From Toxonevra muliebris (lineage: Eukaryota; Arthropoda; Insecta; Diptera; Pallopteridae): a DNA stretch of 64,000 nt. Under the pieces are notes generated by a model. It saw only the letters and a list, made by a program, of their open reading frames with translations, was not told the DNA's origin and did not search any database. The position numbers and the translations under genes are program-made. Of the stretch, positions 2,207 to 58,550 are shown piece after piece. The stretch covers positions 19,642,878-19,706,877 of the forward strand of contig OY829326.1 of NCBI GenBank assembly GCA_963691655.1. The letters run 5' to 3'. Every line of letters starts with the position of its first letter. The stretch's first letter is position 1.

Positions 2207-2384
2207 AGTATTTTTCAAATATTAATAGCTCATAAAGGATATTGAAAGACTAACAACTATCACTAAGATCACTGATGAGGAATTGTGGCGAATTCCGAAA
2301 CGACCGTCTGATTTGTCTGACTCTATATACACTGTTGTTGTTTTGACTACATTTGTTCATTAAGCCTGGTTATATATTACTTCC
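2207..2384 (+). mobile_element. Short hammerhead-ribozyme retroelement, copy 1 (5' truncated)
   Basis: About 178 bp align with the 3' part of the 57.1-kb element, from TTCAAATATTA through the terminal TTCATTAAGCCTG and TATATATTACTTCC. The sequence AAAGTGCA occurs at 2199-2206 and again at 2385-2392, consistent with an 8-bp target-site duplication around a 5' truncated insertion. It carries an intact hammerhead motif (2265-2315). There is no coding capacity, so it must be mobilised in trans. Confidence 0.7.
2265..2315 (+). ncRNA. Hammerhead ribozyme (type I, minimal helix III)
   Basis: All catalytic core blocks are present in order. Helix I 5' strand is AGAUCA (2266-2271), followed by CUGAUGA (2272-2278). 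Helix II pairs GGAAUU (2279-2284) with AAUUCC (2291-2296) around the loop GUGGCG. Next come GAAA (2297-2300) and C2301, the loop GACC, then the cleavage triplet GUC (2306-2308) and helix I 3' strand UGAUUU (2309-2314). Helix II has six perfect pairs. Helix I has six pairs including one G-U. Helix III is only A-U plus C-G, as in the minimal hammerheads of Penelope-like elements. Predicted cleavage is between 2308 and 2309. Structure was assigned by eye. Confidence 0.82.
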
Positions 2385-2392
2385 AAAGTGCA

Positions 2393-8487: not shown

Positions 8488-9106
8488 TAGATTAGATTAG
8501 ATTAATACGGAGGTGGGCAATAATTTCCCAGATCACTGCCTATTGTTATATACCTCAAAGATTTATTGTGTTTATAGTTCTCCTATGAGTTTATTTCCTT
8601 TGAGAAAATTTAATATCTCTTTAGGAGAACAATCCGCAATGTCTTGCGGTTGTAGGATGGAGTTTCCCAAGTAACGAAGTCGGGTCCTCATTAGACCTTC
8701 ACAGTGGCATAAAATATGTTCTGCTGTTTCTTCCTCCTCGTTACATATTCGGCACGTATCGTCTTGTGCTAGACCCAAGTTCGATAGGTGTTTTTTGACC
8801 CTACAATGCCCTGTTTAGAACCTTGTGGCAATTCGGATTTGGTTCCTGCCTAAATTAAGCAGTTGTTTAGTTCTGCGTTGACAGATCTTTGGCATGAATG
8901 ATTTAGCTTGTCTGTTACCGGGGGTTTCCCTCCAGTATTGTAGCGAGTTACTGTCCAGCCAATTTTTTAAACTGATTTTAACGGAACTCCATGGTAGACC
9001 GCAGAATGGTCGTGGTCCAGTGAATTCACTGGATGATCCTTTCCTTGCAAGTTCGTCCGCCATTTCATTGCCTACATGTCCTCTATGCCCTGGCACCCAA
9101 AATTTA
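8488..9106 (-). mobile_element. RNase H-type LINE, 3' remnant
   Basis: A 5' truncated LINE on the minus strand ends in TAATC tandem repeats (8488-8505 when read in reverse). It retains only the end of the RNase H domain and the C-terminal Cys/His knuckle of an I/LOA-like element. A MITE begins 38 bp beyond its truncated end. Confidence 0.75.
8572..9105 (-). pseudogene. RNase H and C-terminal Cys/His domain of LINE ORF2 (broken)
   Basis: The frame starts inside RNase H at WVPGHRG and continues with GNEMADELARKG, which holds the last catalytic Asp of LINE RNase H domains. One TAA stop (8815-8817) interrupts it, after which the same frame runs on through TGHC and the knuckle CRICNEEEETAEHILCHC to the natural end at 8572. 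RNase H in these elements degrades template RNA during target-primed reverse transcription. The copy is inactive: endonuclease and RT are missing and there is an in-frame stop. Confidence 0.8.
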
Positions 9107-9143
9107 AATAATAGAAACACGAATTACTTACCCAAAATAATAA

Positions 9144-16106: not shown

Positions 16107-17263
16107 CAGTAATCCCCGGTTAATTGAGTCGAAAAAAAGCACAAGCAGGGAACCCAATTAACCGGATTTCCTTTCAATTCTTAAAAACCCTGAGAATAGC
16201 AATCGCACGAAATAGATGAAATATATCGTTATACAACTGTTATTTATGCAGATTGCAGCCCCCTTATGGGGCTGAACCATACGGAAAGGGCTTTCTCCAT
16301 CTGGCCACAAGTTCCACTTTTTATTCGCCATTTTTGAGAAATTTCTAAAAGGTTTTCAACTCCGATTTGTTTACACCATTATGCGACCATTTTGAATTTT
16401 TCCTTCATTGTTAAACTTGAATATTTATTTTTCTAACGAAATACAAACGAATTTGTAAAGAAATCAGCGGTCGTCACGTAATTTACTCAAAAATATATAA
16501 AAAATTCAATCGATTAATTCGGTACCAGATGTTGCCCGACCATTTATTTTAAAGTACTAACAAAATTATTGAATTGCTACCATATTTTTTTGAGCAGATT
16601 GGGGAAGAAAACGTGTGAGAGCTGGTCTTGAGAAAGAACTCTACATCGACGGGTCAAAGATGGACTGCAGGGTCGGTGCTGGAGTCTACTCAGAACACAT
16701 CAGTATTGTCGAATCTTTTAGACTCCCGAATGAAGCCTGTGTTTTCCAGGCCGAACTTCTGGCGATCAGAGAAGCCTGCAAAGCACTGACCAAAATCCAA
16801 AGGAAGGCTAAAGTAGCCATCTTCACAGACAGCCAAGCGGCTATTAATACCTTAGGCTCAGGCATAATATCTTCTAGATAAGTTAACCAATGCAGGGAGT
16901 TACTCGCCACCCTAAGTCACAGGCTGGACATTGGCCTTATTTGGGTTCTTGGTCACAGGAACATTGAAGGCAATGAAAAGGCCGATGAATTAGCGAGGCG
17001 AGGTTCAGCTCTGGATTTAAATCAGGTGCAATCTGTATCAATTCCCCTGAATCAATTATTATTTATAAGTGCAATTAACGGGGTATATTTTAGTACTTTT
17101 GAATGTGAAAGAGCAGAATTATTGGCCCAATTTAAGGGGGAACTCAATTAAACGAGGACCAAATAAGCGGGGAATGATATGAATACTTTTACTGGCTATT
17201 AAAATTTTCACAAATACTTATATGCTCAATTAAACCAGGAACTCAAATAACCGGGGCTTAATG
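16107..17263. mobile_element. pogo/Tigger-like TIR element containing a LINE fragment
   Basis: The left end CAGTAATCCCCGGTTAATTG (from 16107) is mirrored at the right by TCAAATAACCGGGGCTTAATG (17243-17263), and TA lies on both sides (16105-16106, 17264-17265). The CAGT start and CCGGTTAATTGAG-type end resemble pogo/Tigger termini. The end motif recurs inverted at 16148-16166, making a left-end hairpin, and again at 17144-17175 as a second right-end unit. No transposase is present. An RNase H fragment of a LINE occupies much of the interior. Confidence 0.6.
16612..17055 (+). pseudogene. RNase H domain fragment of a LINE
   Basis: The frame shows YIDGSK (first catalytic Asp), FQAELLAIREA (catalytic Glu), FTDSQAA (second Asp), then one stop (TAA 16879-16881). 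In the same frame it continues through CRELLATLSH, WVLGHRNIEGNEKADELARRG (last Asp) and ends without the C-terminal knuckle. Both ends are truncated and no LINE 3' tail is present. That is unusual for an ordinary LINE insertion and suggests internal deletion or capture inside the TIR element. Confidence 0.8.
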
Positions 17264-22988: not shown

Positions 22989-23149
22989 TATAAGGGTTGA
23001 ACCTGGGATTTTTTTGGATACTTTTCAAGTATTGTATTCAAGAATTGTATTTAAAAATACACAGAAAATGGATAGAAAAATTATATTGGAAAATAATCTG
23101 AACCAGAAGCATTAGATTTGAACTTTTTTTTCTTAAATATCAGCTATGG

Positions 23150-23378
23150 TGTTTTTTTCAGCATCTTTATTCATTGAACATATTTTCCATTAATCTTGTT
23201 ATTCTGTGTTACAATTTCAGATATTAAATAGCTTATATAGGTTGCTAAAATACTAATAAGAACCAACATAAAGATCACTAATGAGAAATCGTGGCGAATT
23301 CCATTTGCTCGCCCTATAGACATTGTTCTCACTTTGCCAATTTGACACTTTGACTGAACTGATGTTCATTAAGGATCG
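23150..23378 (+). mobile_element. Hammerhead retroelement family, decayed copy 2
   Basis: It aligns with the 57.1-kb element over TTATTCATTGAA, TTCTGTGTTAC, ATATTAAATAGCTTATATAG, AAGATCACTAATGAG and GTTCATTAAGG. The core reads CTAATGA where CUGAUGA is needed, and GAAA is replaced by ATTT, so no active ribozyme is expected. Confidence 0.55.
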
Positions 23379-23393
23379 TTTTCTCGATGTCGA

Positions 23394-23516
23394 GTTAAGC
23401 ACTAATCAGAACTAAATACTACTAATAACCGACGATTAAAGTTCTGATTAGTGCTTAACTAATTAGAACTAATTACTACTAATAACCGACGATTAAAGTT
23501 CTGATTAGTGCTTAAC
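23394..23516. repeat. Tandem 57-bp repeat with inverted arms
   Basis: AGTTCTGATTAGTGCTTAAC occurs at 23440-23459 and 23497-23516 (period 57), together with a shared ACTACTAATAACCGACGATT block. Its exact inverse GTTAAGCACTAATCAGAACT is at 23394-23413, so the left arm can fold on either copy. Confidence 0.85.
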
Positions 23517-34337: not shown

Positions 34338-35865
34338 CACTTGTGGACATACAATTAAGTCATACACTAATGAGCAAAAGAATTTTAAGAAAAAATAAAG
34401 TCTCTATTGAAAAGAAACAAAACCAACGGTTAAATAAATAAATAACAGTTCAATATTTAAAATTATAAAAGAAATAAATAGTTATAATGTCAAATATGTA
34501 AAAATTTTCCAAATTATCGTATGTCTATTTGCGGTCATATAATTAAGTCATATGCTAAACAAAAATATTTAAAAATAATAAGTTTGATGATTTTTAATTT
34601 TGAACTGAAATTTTAGTACTTTGTGGAAACCATTTTTGCCTGATAATTTCTGTACATCTCTTCGACTAGTACCAGAGCATTGGGCAGCAGTGATTTGATT
34701 CTATTCCTCCTGGATAGCCATAAGGAAGACTTATTTGAAGGTTTTTGCGCTATCATGACCCTTTTTAAAACTTTGGGCTGGCCACTCGAGAATTTTTATC
34801 TTGTTTTCATTTAACCAAGACTTAACGACCCGATATGTGTGTTTCGAGTCGTTATCATGCTGAAAGATCTAACCTCGGAGAAGATGATTTTTAAGGATGC
34901 CTTTGTACTTTTCTTCAGTAATTCTGATATCGATTTAAGCAATTGGACTAACTCCAGATGAAGTGAAACACCACCAAACCATTACACAAGGGCCCTATGT
35001 TTTACAGTTTTTTTTAGTAAATTTTGGGTCCAGCTTAGTACTTGATGGGTACCTAACAAAGAGCCTTCCATCGATCCCAAATACATTTAAATTGGATTAA
35101 TCGCTCCAAACAATCGTTTTCCAAAAATGCTAGTACTAGAGGAGATATCTTTTAGCGAACTGAATACGATGCGCAATTTTTTTTTTTTTTTGACCGTTGG
35201 GTTTATGTCTATTAATTCGTCCTAATATTTTTTTTTCGTTTAATCGCTTGCGTATAGTTCTGGCTGATATTTTCAAATTATAATCTAAGTCCATTTGTGA
35301 TCTTAGTTTGATAAAAGTTAAGAAATCGTTCATTTTGCTGAGCCTAATCAAGTACCTATCTTCAGCTGGAGACGTTTTAGTTGTTTTTTTGCATTGCAAA
35401 TTGTGAAATGATTTGAATTTTTTGTAGTATCTTATCTCATTGACCACTTTCCACGTAAAAAAGCTAGCTCTTCCAGGACCATTGCTATAATCCCAAGGTT
35501 CTGGGAAGTTTTCCAAATAAGCTCCCTCTTCGAGGGAGTGGAACTCTTATTTTTGCCCATCTCAACCAAAATCAACAATTGTTCAACTAAAGTATACAGA
35601 AATGTGTAAATGATCAAGTTGATTGCCAAAGAGTATAAAATGACTTAATTATATGTCTACTTCTAATCTTACTCCTTCACACACAATTGTCGACTACGCG
35701 CTGAATACGTCACTCTTTTGTAATTGTTCTTAATATTTTTTAAGGGTACTAATGGTACCGCTAAATGACATTATACAAAATTCTTGGACTGCTACTTAAT
35801 GCAAAATATTTTTCAAACTCAACATAAAATATTGTTCTAGTGACTTAATTATGTGACCACAAGTG
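34338..35865 (-). mobile_element. Tc1-like transposon with IR/DR ends
   Basis: The ends CACTTGTGGACATACAATTA (from 34338) and TAATTATGTGACCACAAGTG (to 35865) are inverted and flanked by TA (34336-34337, 35866-35867), the Tc1/mariner target duplication. Inner copies of the end motif lie about 190-200 bp inside each end (near 34521-34556 and 35641-35662). This is the IR/DR layout of the Sleeping Beauty/Minos type. At 1,528 bp it is near full length; the transposase is on the minus strand and dead. Confidence 0.9.
34640..35560 (-). pseudogene. Tc1-like transposase (broken)
   Basis: The start MGKNKSSTPSKREL (ATG at 35558-35560) leads into the DNA-binding region, but a frameshift follows within about 40 codons. 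The next frame carries SPAEDRYLIRLS and ISARTIRKRLNE, the second helix-turn-helix region. Later frames show VWSD (first catalytic Asp) directly followed by a stop, and QHDNDSKHT (second Asp). The LEWPAQS motif is also present, but the downstream part with the third acidic residue is lost. Many stops and shifts make it inactive. Confidence 0.85.
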
Positions 35866-44596: not shown

Positions 44597-44639
44597 TATG
44601 TGAAAAAAAATTTGAGAAATTAATTATTTTAAAAAAGGT

Positions 44640-45400
44640 TGTTTAGGTACATTGAGTGCGACAATTTCGTCACCAGCTACAAGTTGGCAAAAAGTTTACT
44701 GATGGACAGCAATTTATCGATGTTGGGCATAGTGAATAAAAGACGAAAATTTGTGCAACCACAATTTGCTATTCCAAAAGGACGTGCAGTGGAATCGACT
44801 ATATTTAGTTTCAGCAACAATATTACCATGTGTTCCTACATGGCGAAGAAAAATATTTCAGTTGTGGTCCTTTCAACAATGCATTACACAACCGAAGTAG
44901 AAGGTTCAAAGAAAAAGCAGCTAATGATATTAAATTACAACCAAACCAAAGGTGGCGTCGATAATAGGAATAAATGCCTGACAGGATACTTAACTAAGCG
45001 GCGAACGAATAGATGTCCTTTGGCATTCTTTTAAAATATTCTGGATGTAGCTGCCTTAACTGCGTACATAATTTACGTTGGGAACAACCCACACCTGAAG
45101 GCCTCTACAAACTGGCTAGGATGTTCTTTCATCAACTTGGTGAACAACTGGCGAATCCTTAAATAGAAGTAAGAGTCTATAGTACTTGAATACCAAGAAT
45201 ATTCTCTATAAGCAACGCCATCGAAGCAATAAACGGCGGTCCCGGTTAGGTTAATGAATGCTGCAGTGGGAGGTGAGGAAGAACGTGACAGCACCGGCGG
45301 AAATAAAACAAAGGGTAATTGCTATGTATGCGCTAAACGTCGCCCAACAAGGAAAGCCTGAACATTAAGCAAAAAACCCAAGTGTGCAGAACATTCTACT
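44640..45400 (+). pseudogene. piggyBac-like transposase, C-terminal remnant
   Basis: The first segment (44639-45034) has CDNFVTSYKLAKSLL, the DNF-x-TS catalytic Asp motif, then YNQTKGGVDNRNKC, the second conserved motif with a catalytic Asp. After a stop the same domain goes on with ILDVAALTAYIIYV and NNPHL. A Cys-rich tail CYVCAKRRPTRKA with KKPKC near 45320-45395 fits the C-terminal RING-like finger of piggyBac proteins. The N-terminal half is absent and several stops are present. Confidence 0.8.
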
Positions 45401-55000: not shown

Positions 55001-57095
55001 AGAAGAAGAAGAAGAAAAAAAAAATAAGATGAAGGCATAAAGACACTAACGTTGATGCTGTTACAGCCTGCTACCATATTTGCTTTATGGCGCAGCGAGG
55101 CGTTACCTTAACCACCCACCCACCCATGCTATAACAAAAACGAAGTAAGTTATTGATGTGCACATGTTGTGTTTTACACAGTGAGTGTGTGTTGCATGCA
55201 AAAAGGAAAGAAGTTGCAAAAATTACCAGTGCAGTCAATCAAGCAACGACGACTGCGCATAATTATGCACATTCATTGGTATGTATATGACTGAAAATGA
55301 GGATGATGATGTTGAAGCACTTTGTTATAATGCAATGATAATGAAAATGATGATTATGATGAAGATGCTGCTGCTATGAGTTGATTGTATAGTGTTGACG
55401 ATGACTATGATGGCTACGTCATTTTGTCAGCCGTAACTATTATGCAGTCTTAAAGTTAAAGTTGACTTAGTCATTATTTGTTGATGACCATGGCGCATCA
55501 GCATAATACAAAAAAGTTGAACACTTCTCCTCCCAATCCATATAAAAAAACAACTCAAAGAGAACCTGTATATGGCCAGTGAACACCGACAGCGTCGCGT
55601 CTCTATCACAACTTCCAAGCAGCAGTTAGTCTCCAGTAATAACAGTAGCAAATATAAACTTCATGCAGCCCCACCGCTACAAATATAATGATGATAATGA
55701 TGATGATGATAATACCAACCAAGCGGTGACTGAGCTAGTGAGGGTAGACAACAACAAAAACAACAACAATAAAATATCTTTAAAAAAAAAACAAAAAAAT
55801 CCTACAAAGAAGTTTTGCGCATAAATAATTATTAGCAATTGCTTTAAAAGAGAAAAATTTTGCGCAGGTGCAGCTGCAGCCCAAAACACAAAAAATATGC
55901 AAGCAACCAACGCCATCAACAAAAACAACAACAGCCACGAACTAAAGTAACAACAATAAGAAGAAGAACAGCAACAGTTCTTTTTTCCTCTTCAATTTTT
56001 GTTTTTGCTACTTTATACTTAATGTTTATATTGCACAGTAATTTTAAACTTCTTATTCTTTGTTGTTTTTGCTTAATACATTTTTCACATTTTAACACAC
56101 AAGCGAATTTGTGCATTCGCAGCGTAGTGCAGTGCAATCAAAAAGAAGAAGCTGAAAAACTCAATGGGGAAGAAAAAGGAATTCAAAAACAAAAGACTTA
56201 AGCAACGAACTTACTTTCATTACTATACACTGGGAATAGTAGAGCAATTTGCTGTCATCATCACCATCAGCACCAAACATCATTATGAGCATTCAGTTGT
56301 TGTTGTTGTTGTAATAATTCTGTTTAACACTAATTAGCTAAAAGGATAAGGTTCAAAATTTCAACAGCAGCAACCGCCGCAACAGCTACTGACTTCAGCA
56401 ACGAAATTTGTTGTGACTGGATGCCTGCGCTTTTGCCACTTTAAGAAGGGGGCAATATTTCTTTTAGAAACAAAAAATGAAAAAAGGAAACCCTAAACTG
56501 TTTCAGAAGTACCTAAAGTATCTGTGGTAATTGTTGCAAAGTTTTTTTTTAAGCATTTTTCGACGTTGTTGCTTACGTTGTTTCACGTACTTGCATTTAT
56601 GCTGTATGCATTACGAAGGAATGCTACCTTATATAGGGGAGTTTCCGGTGTTTGGCGTTTTGCTGCTGCTTAATGCCTTTTTTGTTGCTTTTTTCTTTTG
56701 CGTTTTTTGTGCAGTGCGTTAAAATAACAATGTATGTTTGTAGCACATACGGATACATAACTTCAACATAAACCACAAACCAACAATTTCCTGGCCAGTT
56801 GCTGCATGGTGCGAGACTTACTCGCATATGCATAAATATTTATTGCTTGCAACTGGTTAGCTTTAATTAGCTAAAGTGTTAATTTCGGAAGCTTTTTTCA
56901 AAGTTTTGAATAAGTTCTTTTATACTAGAAACTATTTGAAGTAAACTTATGCCAAAGTAATTTAACTTTAAATAATTTATGTTCTAAGAAAGTGCAAGTT
57001 AAAAGTTTGGTAATATTTGTGAAGTGTGTACACAAAAAATATCCAATACAAGGCATAATTTTTTATGAAAAGAAATAATCAAACAAAAGCTAAAG
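52020..57095. other. Mostly host-like AT-rich DNA
   Basis: 53004-53200 holds three ATTATAATGAA-type repeat units (see the 51.3-kb repeat). 54300-56450 is rich in CAA/CAG, GAT and AAC runs with many spurious open frames. No gene or RNA was recognised. Confidence 0.45.
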
Positions 57096-57098
57096 ATG

Positions 57099-57633
57099 TT
57101 GTGATGACTACATTTGTTCATTAAGCCTGTTTATATATAACTTCAAATAACGAAATTGACATGAACTTAAGTCATGACTTTGAAAAATTAACCTCTAGAT
57201 TTAATTTTCATAGTCTCCTAAAAAACTATCATGAACTGATCGAATGGGGACCGTTCAGAAAAAATGACACCTAGAATCATTTTCTCACAAACACACACAC
57301 TCTCCCATGTACTAGACTTTCAAATAACGAACTGTTATGCAGACTAGCTACAATGGGAAAAAAACAACCACATAAGTGTATAGAACGGTAGTGGTAGTTT
57401 CTTTCAATATCTCTATTCAGTGAAGATATTTGGAATCAAATCCGTAATTCTGGGTTATGATTTCAAATATTAGTAGCTTATATGGGATATTGAAAGATTA
57501 AGAACTATCACTAAGATCACTGATGAGCAATTGTGGCGGATTCCGAAACGGCCGTCTGATTTGTCCGTCTCTATATACATTGTTGTTGTGATGACTACAT
57601 TTGTTCATTAAGCCTGTTTATATATAACTTCAA
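57099..57633 (+). mobile_element. Hammerhead retroelement, best copy, with direct terminal repeats
   Basis: AAAAGCTAAAGATG at 57085-57098 recurs at 57633-57646, a 14-bp target-site duplication. The insert starts with a repeat of its own 3' end: 57097-57147 and 57584-57634 are identical over 51 bp (TGTTGTGATGACTACATTTG onward), period 487. This fits insertion of a cDNA that read through one unit into the end of the previous one. A hammerhead ribozyme lies about 70-120 bp before the 3' end. There is no coding capacity. Confidence 0.8.
57514..57562 (+). ncRNA. Hammerhead ribozyme (type I, minimal helix III)
   Basis: Core blocks: AGAUCA (57514-57519), CUGAUGA (57520-57526), helix II GCAAUU/GAUUCC around GUGGCG (one C-C mismatch and one G-U), GAAA (57545-57548), C with loop GGCC, cleavage triplet GUC (57554-57556), then UGAUUU (57557-57562). 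Helix I has the same six pairs as at 2.3 kb. The two copies differ in helix II and in one loop base of helix III, while every core base is kept. Confidence 0.78.
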
Positions 57634-58550
57634 AAAGCTAAAGATGCTGTATTAAAGAAAAATTTGAATTTACATGCATTAAATTAACCAAGCAAACAAA
57701 TTTTTCAACATAGAATTTCTCAAATTAATATAATGTGAAAACAACACATTTTTTTCTAACAAACAACAACATATTTTCCACATTTCATTTAAGTTGTTTG
57801 TTAGCGGCGCTTGTTAACACTCCAACAACATGCAACATAAATTTGTTATTATTAAATTTGTGATATGATTTTGCTTCATTTTAAATGTTTTTCGGTTTTT
57901 TTTTTTTTGCGCTGCAATTAAAAAATTTACTCAACACCATAACTTTAATTAAATATGCTCGTTAATATACAAAGTAAAAACAAAAATGGTAAGAAAACAT
58001 GAGCGCATGCGCAAAGCGCAGAGGCACAGGTGCTGCTTCAATTAAATTTATAGCACACAGAAAAGAAAAAATAAATAAAAAGAAGAAGAAATAGCAGCAG
58101 CAGCCAGTCAACAGCAAATAAATTAAAATGTTGCTAAAAGCGAGCGCATCATTAATTTTTTGCAGCAGTAGCAGCAACATCTTTTAAAGCACCAATTTGT
58201 GAGGTGCTGAAAATACAATTTAAAAGCATAAAAATTTCAAAAATATGAATGATGGTTAAATTTAATATGTTAGAAAACGCAACTTAGATAAACAAAAATA
58301 TATTAATTTTATATTTGGAATTATAAATATTTATAAAAATTCTGCTGCAATCATTCATTCATGATTCGAGTGAACTATAGAAGCAACAACAATCACAGTC
58401 ACTAACAACAACTTGGCAGCTGAAGGCAAAATAAGATAGAGAAAAAGAAGAGTTTACCCTATAGTAATATAAAACCACCCAAGTGGTCATCAATCATGTA
58501 TTTTCTACACACGCTCTTGCACTCATATCTAGATGCTATTAACCAGCAAA

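Follow-up and report, generated by a model that had tools for sequence, protein, structure and literature searches.

A probable non-autonomous hammerhead retrozyme with Penelope-type insertion ends in the fly Toxonevra muliebris

Introduction

Which machinery moves a small hammerhead-bearing repeat that encodes no protein of its own? The question is raised by a locus of the fly Toxonevra muliebris (Diptera; Pallopteridae), in a stretch of 64,000 nucleotides of contig OY829326.1 (assembly GCA_963691655.1, positions 19,642,878 to 19,706,877), hereafter the window, in which an insertion that we call copy A carries a hammerhead ribozyme motif. Animal retrozymes without long terminal repeats (LTRs) but with type I hammerheads are known, insects are among their hosts, and Penelope elements are a strong candidate for their mobilisation (PMC7229834), although a 2020 review describes animal retrozymes as having no conserved motif that reveals whose machinery moves them (PMC7761336). 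Published systems are represented here by partial texts of the papers cited. An earlier sequence-only reading of copy A had proposed that a self-cleaving RNA of about 487 nt was copied past its own junction and inserted, making either a non-autonomous insect retrozyme or a Penelope-derived element. Our analysis indicates that copy A probably belongs to a family of non-autonomous, non-LTR retrozymes with a protein-free unit of 486/487 nt, copied in trans by a Penelope-like enzyme.

Results

Insertion structure of copy A

Copy A consists of the end of one unit followed by one complete unit, between the two members of a target-site duplication (Table 1). This exact 14-bp duplication, which the sequence-only reading had reported, stood up to inspection, and a 14-bp match between pairs of 22-mers occurred in none of 5000 simulated pairs and none of 5000 pairs drawn from the window. 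The exact 51-bp direct repeat with a period of 487 described in the same reading was also recovered, at 57097-57147 and 57584-57634, where a repeat finder reported 59 nt at 95%. Because 2 bp at each end of the 51-bp repeat fall inside the target duplication, the element's own terminal repeat is 47 bp, and it appears to correspond to a Penelope pseudo-LTR truncated at its 5' end. Both the ends and the terminal repeat fit the proposal that an RNA was copied past its own junction and then inserted with a target duplication. Copying past the junction is thus retained, with the refinement that the 3' end of the insertion lies 75 nt past the predicted ribozyme cut and not at the cut.

The unit of copy A has a GC content of 34% and differs from the family majority at five places, one of them an indel and one in stem II of the hammerhead. 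Between 57099 and 57632 there is no stop-to-stop frame of at least 90 amino acids and, by that measure, no reverse transcriptase (RT) or GIY-YIG coding region. A 13-bp repeat (57142-57154 and 57319-57331) brackets a 164-nt segment without excess structure inside an otherwise strongly paired unit, and it prompted the idea of a nested insertion of 164 nt into a 310-nt unit. Folding the segment gave no more stability than folding its shuffles. Genome matches spanning this part carry the long unit at steps near 486, and the idea was therefore dropped for the living family; the segment is possibly an older acquisition by the family.

Table 1. Features of the hammerhead family in the window (positions counted from the first base of the window)
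Feature	Position	Strand	Remarks
Left target-site duplication AAAAGCTAAAGATG	57085..57098		exact match to 57633-57646
Copy A, inserted element	57099..57632	+	47 nt of preceding unit, then a complete unit of 487 nt; end structure shared by genomic copies
Copy A repeat unit, u1-u487	57146..57632	+	
Right target-site duplication	57633..57646		exact 14-bp partner of 57085-57098
Proposed start site 1 of reverse transcription	57627..57632	+	ACTTC/A, 75 nt past cut
Proposed start site 2, "tail" end	57217..57239	+	within CCTAAAAAACTATCATGAACTGA, about 160 nt past cut
Long hairpin	57376..57516	+	directly upstream of ribozyme; z -7.4; 0/200 shuffles as stable
Type I hammerhead	57514..57562	+	RF00163 alignment below gathering score; descriptor scan; 98/104 identical intact-type motifs in 39 loci
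Copy A hammerhead, stem I			AGATCA/TGATTT
Copy A hammerhead, core CTGATGA	57520-57526		
Copy A hammerhead, core GAA	57545-57547		
Copy A hammerhead, stem II	57527-57544		C.C mismatch in copy A
Copy A hammerhead, stem III with loop ACGGCCGT	57548-57555		predicted cut follows C57556
Copy B, 5'-truncated	2207..2384	+	90.6% identical to copy A over 171 nt; same 3' end; stem II fully paired
Copy B flanking repeat AAAGTGCA	2199-2206 and 2385-2392		8 bp; chance expectation for an 8-bp match about 1%
Copy C, old	23147..23302	+	74.5% identity over 157 columns; ribozyme core partly deleted

A family of short dispersed arrays

We searched the 491-Mb assembly and scored 40 of 2385 candidate places. These held 126 matches, many of them arranged in tandem at steps of about 486 and with identities of 98-99%, so that the further genomic copies with a period near 487 expected by the sequence-only reading do exist. 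The monomer length that these tandem copies give is 486 nt for the majority unit, which has one A fewer at u38-42 than the window unit. A 28-mer beside the 3' end has 803 exact occurrences genome-wide and none in a reversed control. The family is one of dispersed short tandem arrays, its one-armed inserts (n = 27, defined below) lying on C1 to C5 and holding 1.10-4.99 units each; the longest array in the 39 fetched loci had about 5 units, and long arrays of the satellite type were absent from these loci.

Unit length was not constant. At C1:7097666-7099602, five exact 28-mers follow each other with a step of 484 rather than 486, forming a unit-length variant array. At L036, two of the five units have a 12-base insertion within an A-run at u212, and units of unequal length share one array.

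Units within a locus tended to be alike. For four family polymorphisms (variant in at least three loci), 11 of the 13 locus-site cases had the variant in every unit; L049 carried three such variants in all six counted units of both arms, and both arms of L040 were likewise uniform. Substitutions found in some units only were mostly private changes of one unit. This uniformity is consistent with a single monomer-type RNA that was copied repeatedly; the simplest source of such an RNA would be a circle. Tandem arrays with largely uniform units would also be in keeping with a satellite-type repeat spread at the DNA level by extrachromosomal circles and recombination, with a ribozyme that is vestigial or confined to processing transcripts, as in pDo500, and a hammerhead is indeed known in an insect satellite of roughly 500 bp (PMC2837043). 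We consider such a spread very improbable, since the one-armed inserts are so short and lie on C1 to C5, and the fixed 3' ends, many target duplications and variable 5' ends described below are not predicted by DNA circles.

Two sites for 3' ends and a rule for head-to-head inserts

Insertion ends were mapped in the window copy and the 39 other scored places, which comprised 27 one-armed and 13 two-armed inserts once two 74% fragments beside L036 and L043 had been excluded before counting. Three further two-armed inserts were taken from the list of 28-mers on C1 because they were inverted there, for a total of 16. All 27 one-armed inserts had their 3' ends at two sites, whose windows were defined after the ends were seen and cover 11% of the unit: 12 ended at site 1 (u487 to u13) and 15 at site 2 (u83-94), about 85 nt apart. 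Alignments run a few bases into the flank by chance, and each site is therefore narrower than mapped.

Every two-armed insert (16/16) was head-to-head with both 3' ends outward, and 15 of the 16 had one end at each site. Site 2 was at one end of all 16; site 1 was used strictly in 12, was shifted by 8-16 nt in three (L039, L053, and L066), and could not be read in L040, which runs into N. Independent use of the two sites would make about half of such inserts mixed, and under this expectation 12 mixed inserts in a row have a P of 2e-4 and 14 in a row a P of 5e-5.

Target duplications of at least 12 bp were found at 18 of 39 loci and of at least 10 bp at 20 of 39, compared with 0.25% and 0.75% of random pairs, respectively. 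Those of at least 10 bp were 85% AT, as against 67% for the loci overall. Of the 13 two-armed loci mapped first, 11 had a 12-18-bp match, and five of the 39 loci (L039, L040, L045, L055, and L067) were without a target duplication by the same test.

The 5' ends were variable but some fell at the predicted cut. Among the one-armed inserts, L041 and L051 start at the first base past the cut, L045 starts one base before it, and L063 three after; these four of 27 are an indirect hint of self-cleavage. More broadly, 7 of 27 one-armed inserts had a 5' end within 30 nt past the cut (P 0.001), as did 6 of the 26 arms belonging to two-armed inserts (P 0.004). This enrichment may be partly selection because the search query starts 29 nt past the cut and copy A is among the seven. 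Each of L041, L045, and L051 extends from one cut to a start site and includes an intact ribozyme in between, an arrangement that would yield the terminal direct repeat of copy A. The templates of these three were accordingly longer than a monomer and uncut at that ribozyme.

Some of these features, namely 5' truncation, variable target duplications and AT-rich targets, would also be expected if the same retrozyme were moved by an enzyme of the long interspersed nuclear element (LINE) type through target-primed copying with twin priming, and the window itself holds an RT frame (15-1484) that we take to be LINE-type. In twin priming, the inverted arm starts at an arbitrary internal site, whereas here the outer ends of 15 of the 16 inserts both coincide with the start sites. 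In addition, the ends viewed by eye show no poly-A or simple-repeat tail beyond the content of the target duplications. Mobilisation by a LINE-type enzyme therefore appears quite unlikely to us.

The hammerhead motif

The sequence-only reading had described a complete hammerhead core in copy A. The core and the cut site were found, but stem II of this copy has a C.C mismatch, which is private to copy A and absent from the majority family type. A pairing descriptor applied to both strands of the 64 kb returned exactly two motifs, at 57520-57556 in copy A and at 2272-2308 in the truncated copy B, whereas 300 simulated 64-kb sequences averaged 0.037 motifs, with any motif in only 10 of the 300. 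Covariance models, suggested in that reading as a check, gave a divided answer. On short stretches, RF00163 matched copy A with 23.7 bits (E 0.0004) and copy B with 21.8 bits (E 0.0024), under the gathering score of 34, and at gathering the hammerhead models had no match on the whole window or on two loci with five intact copies each. A 751-nt stretch likewise gave no Rfam hammerhead at E<=10. SNORD24 was considered as an identity and rejected, its 28.1 bits (41 needed) being treated as chance.

In the 39 loci, a regular-expression search for the intact type, which misses most broken hammerheads, found 104 motifs, 98 of them identical, and the 57-base core of this identical type was present in 38 of the 39 loci. 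In this type, stem II is fully paired, including one G-U pair, and stem III has two pairs and a tetraloop; copies A, B, and C all have the same loop 2 (GUGGCG). Two RNAs could pair at stem III, because the family sequence of this stem and its loop (ACGGCCGU) reads as a perfect palindrome. Several ribozymes have been noted to have palindromic stem III/loop III sequences, and the Aedes ribozyme tested was inactive alone (PMC3088659). The family RNA may cleave itself.

RNA folding

When folded as a circle, the 487-nt window unit had a z of -5.7 (60 shuffles), compared with -2.8 to 2.6 for 30 random stretches of the window (15 shuffles each). Much of this stability stems from the long hairpin directly upstream of the ribozyme (Table 1). 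Between copies A and C, 7 of the 56 pairs of the hairpin change on both sides with pairing kept, where 3.5 were expected in shuffles and 3 of 500 shuffles reached seven. Against these, 15 of the 56 pairs are broken, or 13 of 50 usable ones when only the main hairpin is counted, and copy C now folds poorly; the covariation lends the hairpin weak support.

Penelope-like genes in the genome

Penelope-like RT genes are present in the same genome. An RT piece at locus L071 had 148 genome matches in several identity classes, with open frames of up to 866 amino acids; at least three of these classes contain frames of 827-866 amino acids (at C2:62381971, C4:32220825, C3:82088232, C5:20204534, C14:3936, and others). 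At L071, RVT_1 and GIY-YIG domains lie in neighbouring, broken frames, and the C-terminal parts of two of three families compared (ii and iii, one open copy each) align to the L071 GIY-YIG at 57% (E 1e-41) and 40% (E 3e-23). Another GIY-YIG locus, L070, has no RT frame among those listed. The top named relatives of the RT piece are from the flies Eurosta, Rhagoletis, Calliphora, and Haematobia. One database relative has both domains and none is named Penelope by its source; the label accordingly rests on the pairing of RT and GIY-YIG, and the Pfam, homologue, and GIY-YIG comparisons support these genes as putative Penelope-like elements.

Upstream of the frame, families i and iii have small hammerhead-like cores, and the upstream regions of all three families share a short stem-loop with a GCAC-containing loop, both read by eye; Rfam reported nothing on these regions at E<=5. 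Given that Penelope elements have hammerheads and pseudo-LTRs with a tail and that Penelope-like families with open frames live in this genome, the unit might be the terminal repeat of an autonomous Penelope-like element that lost its coding part, and not an independent retrozyme lineage. Against this origin, the 5' regions compared, from one copy of each of the three families, have no sequence in common with the unit, the hammerhead-like core seen by eye in two of the three is different and smaller, and a stem III of two pairs with a tetraloop is the form given for invertebrate retrozymes (PMC7229834). We consider a terminal-repeat origin unlikely. We leave the partner Penelope family unnamed and favour an action in trans of a Penelope-like enzyme as the probable means of movement.

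Other features of the window

Weak similarity to the unit extends beyond the aligned part of copy C to about 23375, and about 100 bp past that aligned part are two 57-bp tandem copies that are 96% identical (23401-23514). The frame at 15-1484 on the forward strand encodes 489 amino acids with a reverse transcriptase domain (Pfam RVT_1, E 2.9e-30), has its closest named relatives in Haematobia irritans (47-49% identity), and is followed by (TAAA)n and an A-run near 1552-1577. Transposon fragments lie at 8818-9123 (-), 16594-16878 (+), 35139-35546 (-), and 44633-45031 (+); they comprise two RNase H pieces, a Tc-type transposase helix-turn-helix, and a DDE_Tnp_1_7 piece, presumably piggyBac-like. 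Viral contigs scanned with two patterns gave no matches.

Discussion

The target duplication, the period-487 repeat, the hammerhead, and the genomic arrays identify the family as an insect-type non-LTR retrozyme. Its unit, the arrays, the two end sites, the head-to-head rule, the duplications, the intact ribozyme sequence, and the Penelope-like genes were all read directly from the assembly. The sequence-only reading had offered a retrozyme or a Penelope-derived element, and the ends make an exclusive choice unnecessary: the element lacks its own RT, yet the ends of the insertions are of Penelope type. A Penelope-like enzyme is favoured because the family shows a tail, inverted arms, and internal starts with distances of its own.

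We propose the following order of events, in which the cleavage, the circles, the enzyme, and the sequence of steps are inferred. Arrays or single copies would be transcribed, and the hammerhead would cut the RNA, producing the 5' ends of some templates or monomers that may be re-joined into circles. A Penelope-like RT with its endonuclease would bind the unit RNA in trans and cut the two strands of an AT-rich target with a stagger that is often 12-14 bp. Copying would begin inside the RNA, 75 or about 160 nt past the ribozyme cut, and by continuing beyond one unit length could generate tandem arrays with a partial terminal repeat. Where both strands were extended, one from site 1 and the other from site 2, a head-to-head insert would result.

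Related systems provide precedents for several of these steps. In the case of Poseidon of Anolis, the Penelope-like enzyme favours AT-rich DNA and begins copying within the RNA at two neighbouring sites, with extension of both DNA strands (PMC11167929). The Anolis RNA is cut 26 nt into the open reading frame (ORF) and copying starts at 111-118, which by arithmetic places the start 85-92 nt past the cut (PMC11167929). In Penelope elements of the rotifer Adineta vaga, an inverted pseudo-LTR (pLTR) completes the insert, and a 31-bp tail is optional on one inverted pLTR (PMC3846280). The family thus resembles Poseidon and the A. vaga elements in its partial tandems, head-to-head arms, tail on one arm, and short target duplications, and it further resembles Poseidon in having a hammerhead, two internal starts past the cut, extension on both strands, and AT-rich targets. 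It differs from these elements in that the unit has no RT or GIY-YIG gene and contains a stem III with a tetraloop.

A number of observations weigh against the proposal, and the first of these concern the RNA template. Because the loci analysed scored highest against a query whose own start lies 29 nt past the cut, near-cut 5' ends may be over-sampled, although the 5' ends exactly at the cut are less exposed to this effect. L041, L045, and L051 hold an intact ribozyme that was thus not cut in their templates, and the main template in Anolis is likewise uncut RNA (PMC11167929). The hammerhead is not the predicted minimum-energy fold of the window copies or of a 58-nt family stretch: the active fold lies about 14 kcal/mol above the minimum for copy A (121-nt context) and 3.6 kcal/mol above it for copy B, and for the family stretch the hammerhead fold is at -6.1 versus -12.8 for the minimum-energy fold. 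Cleavage, if any, would consequently need tertiary contacts, a partner RNA, or a protein. When a hammerhead from the mosquito Aedes was tested in vitro by others, no cleavage occurred (PMC3088659). As for copying from one monomer, substitutions at multiply covered positions occur in every unit in 17 cases and in some units in 18, two family polymorphisms are mixed within a locus (L055 and L064), and the arms of L038, L053, and L066 are distinguished by three private changes. Identity within an array also fits transcription of an already uniform array equally well.

Other points bear on the enzyme. In Anolis, the two strands were not seen to differ in start site, which does not predict the rule of one end at each site (PMC11167929). 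The site spacing of about 85 nt in the family exceeds the Penelope tail of 30-40 nt. The rotifer authors favour self-priming for inverted arms (PMC3846280); a fold-back copy would, however, repeat the start of the first arm, whereas the arms here start at different sites. Comparison of the unit with the 5' regions of the three Penelope families, one copy each, revealed no similarity (best E 0.019). Pfam GIY-YIG has only two matches genome-wide, one of them beside a Penelope RT, and the C-terminal parts of families ii and iii go undetected by this model and owe their assignment to pairwise alignment.

Among known retrozymes, the family is closest to the animal non-LTR type (PMC7229834; Cervera and de la Pena 2020), with which it shares a type I hammerhead, tandem repeats from dimers to multimers, GC below 45-50%, the lack of a coding region, target duplications of more than 4 bp, and a strongly self-paired RNA. 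Its unit of 486/487 nt exceeds the published 150-450 bp (RNAs of 170-400), a range that is descriptive, and the partial text of that account says nothing of two fixed start sites or of head-to-head arms. By most features, the family is therefore a further non-LTR retrozyme member with a slightly long unit. The pDo500 repeat of Dolichopoda cave crickets is also from an insect, with a unit of about 500 bp and a hammerhead, but it is a satellite that makes up about 5% of one species' genome (PMC2837043), in contrast to the short dispersed arrays with target duplications found here. Hammerhead repeats of Aedes aegypti are likewise dipteran, multi-copy, and interspersed, with a loop III able to pair in a dimer (PMC3088659); this likeness is one of description, no analysis of insertion ends being present in the part of the source considered. 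Plant LTR retrozymes share a hammerhead in a non-coding retroelement and a proposed circular RNA stage, yet their type III hammerhead, 4-bp duplications, LTRs, and primer-binding site (PMC7761336) are not seen in the family.

As far as our search reached, what is new is the evidence from insertion ends, with two start sites, head-to-head arms with unlike ends, and AT-rich duplications, alongside Penelope-like genes. No earlier report of such end evidence appeared among the titles and abstract openings listed by searches of an open-access collection, which leaves most subscription papers outside, and a prior description is possible.

With somewhat less than even confidence, we suggest that the element may be a minimal Penelope parasite that keeps only the RNA signals required by the enzyme: a hammerhead to set the 5' end of the template and two paired start sites on a single, probably circular, RNA, one for each cut strand of a target. 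In that case head-to-head insertion would be a regulated and asymmetric reaction, and animal retrozymes might generally be satellites of Penelope elements. The insertion ends point to Penelope-like enzymes in a genome that contains open-frame Penelope-like genes, which makes the question of the mobiliser directly testable, and the rule of one end per site in head-to-head inserts constrains how Penelope enzymes would handle the two DNA strands.

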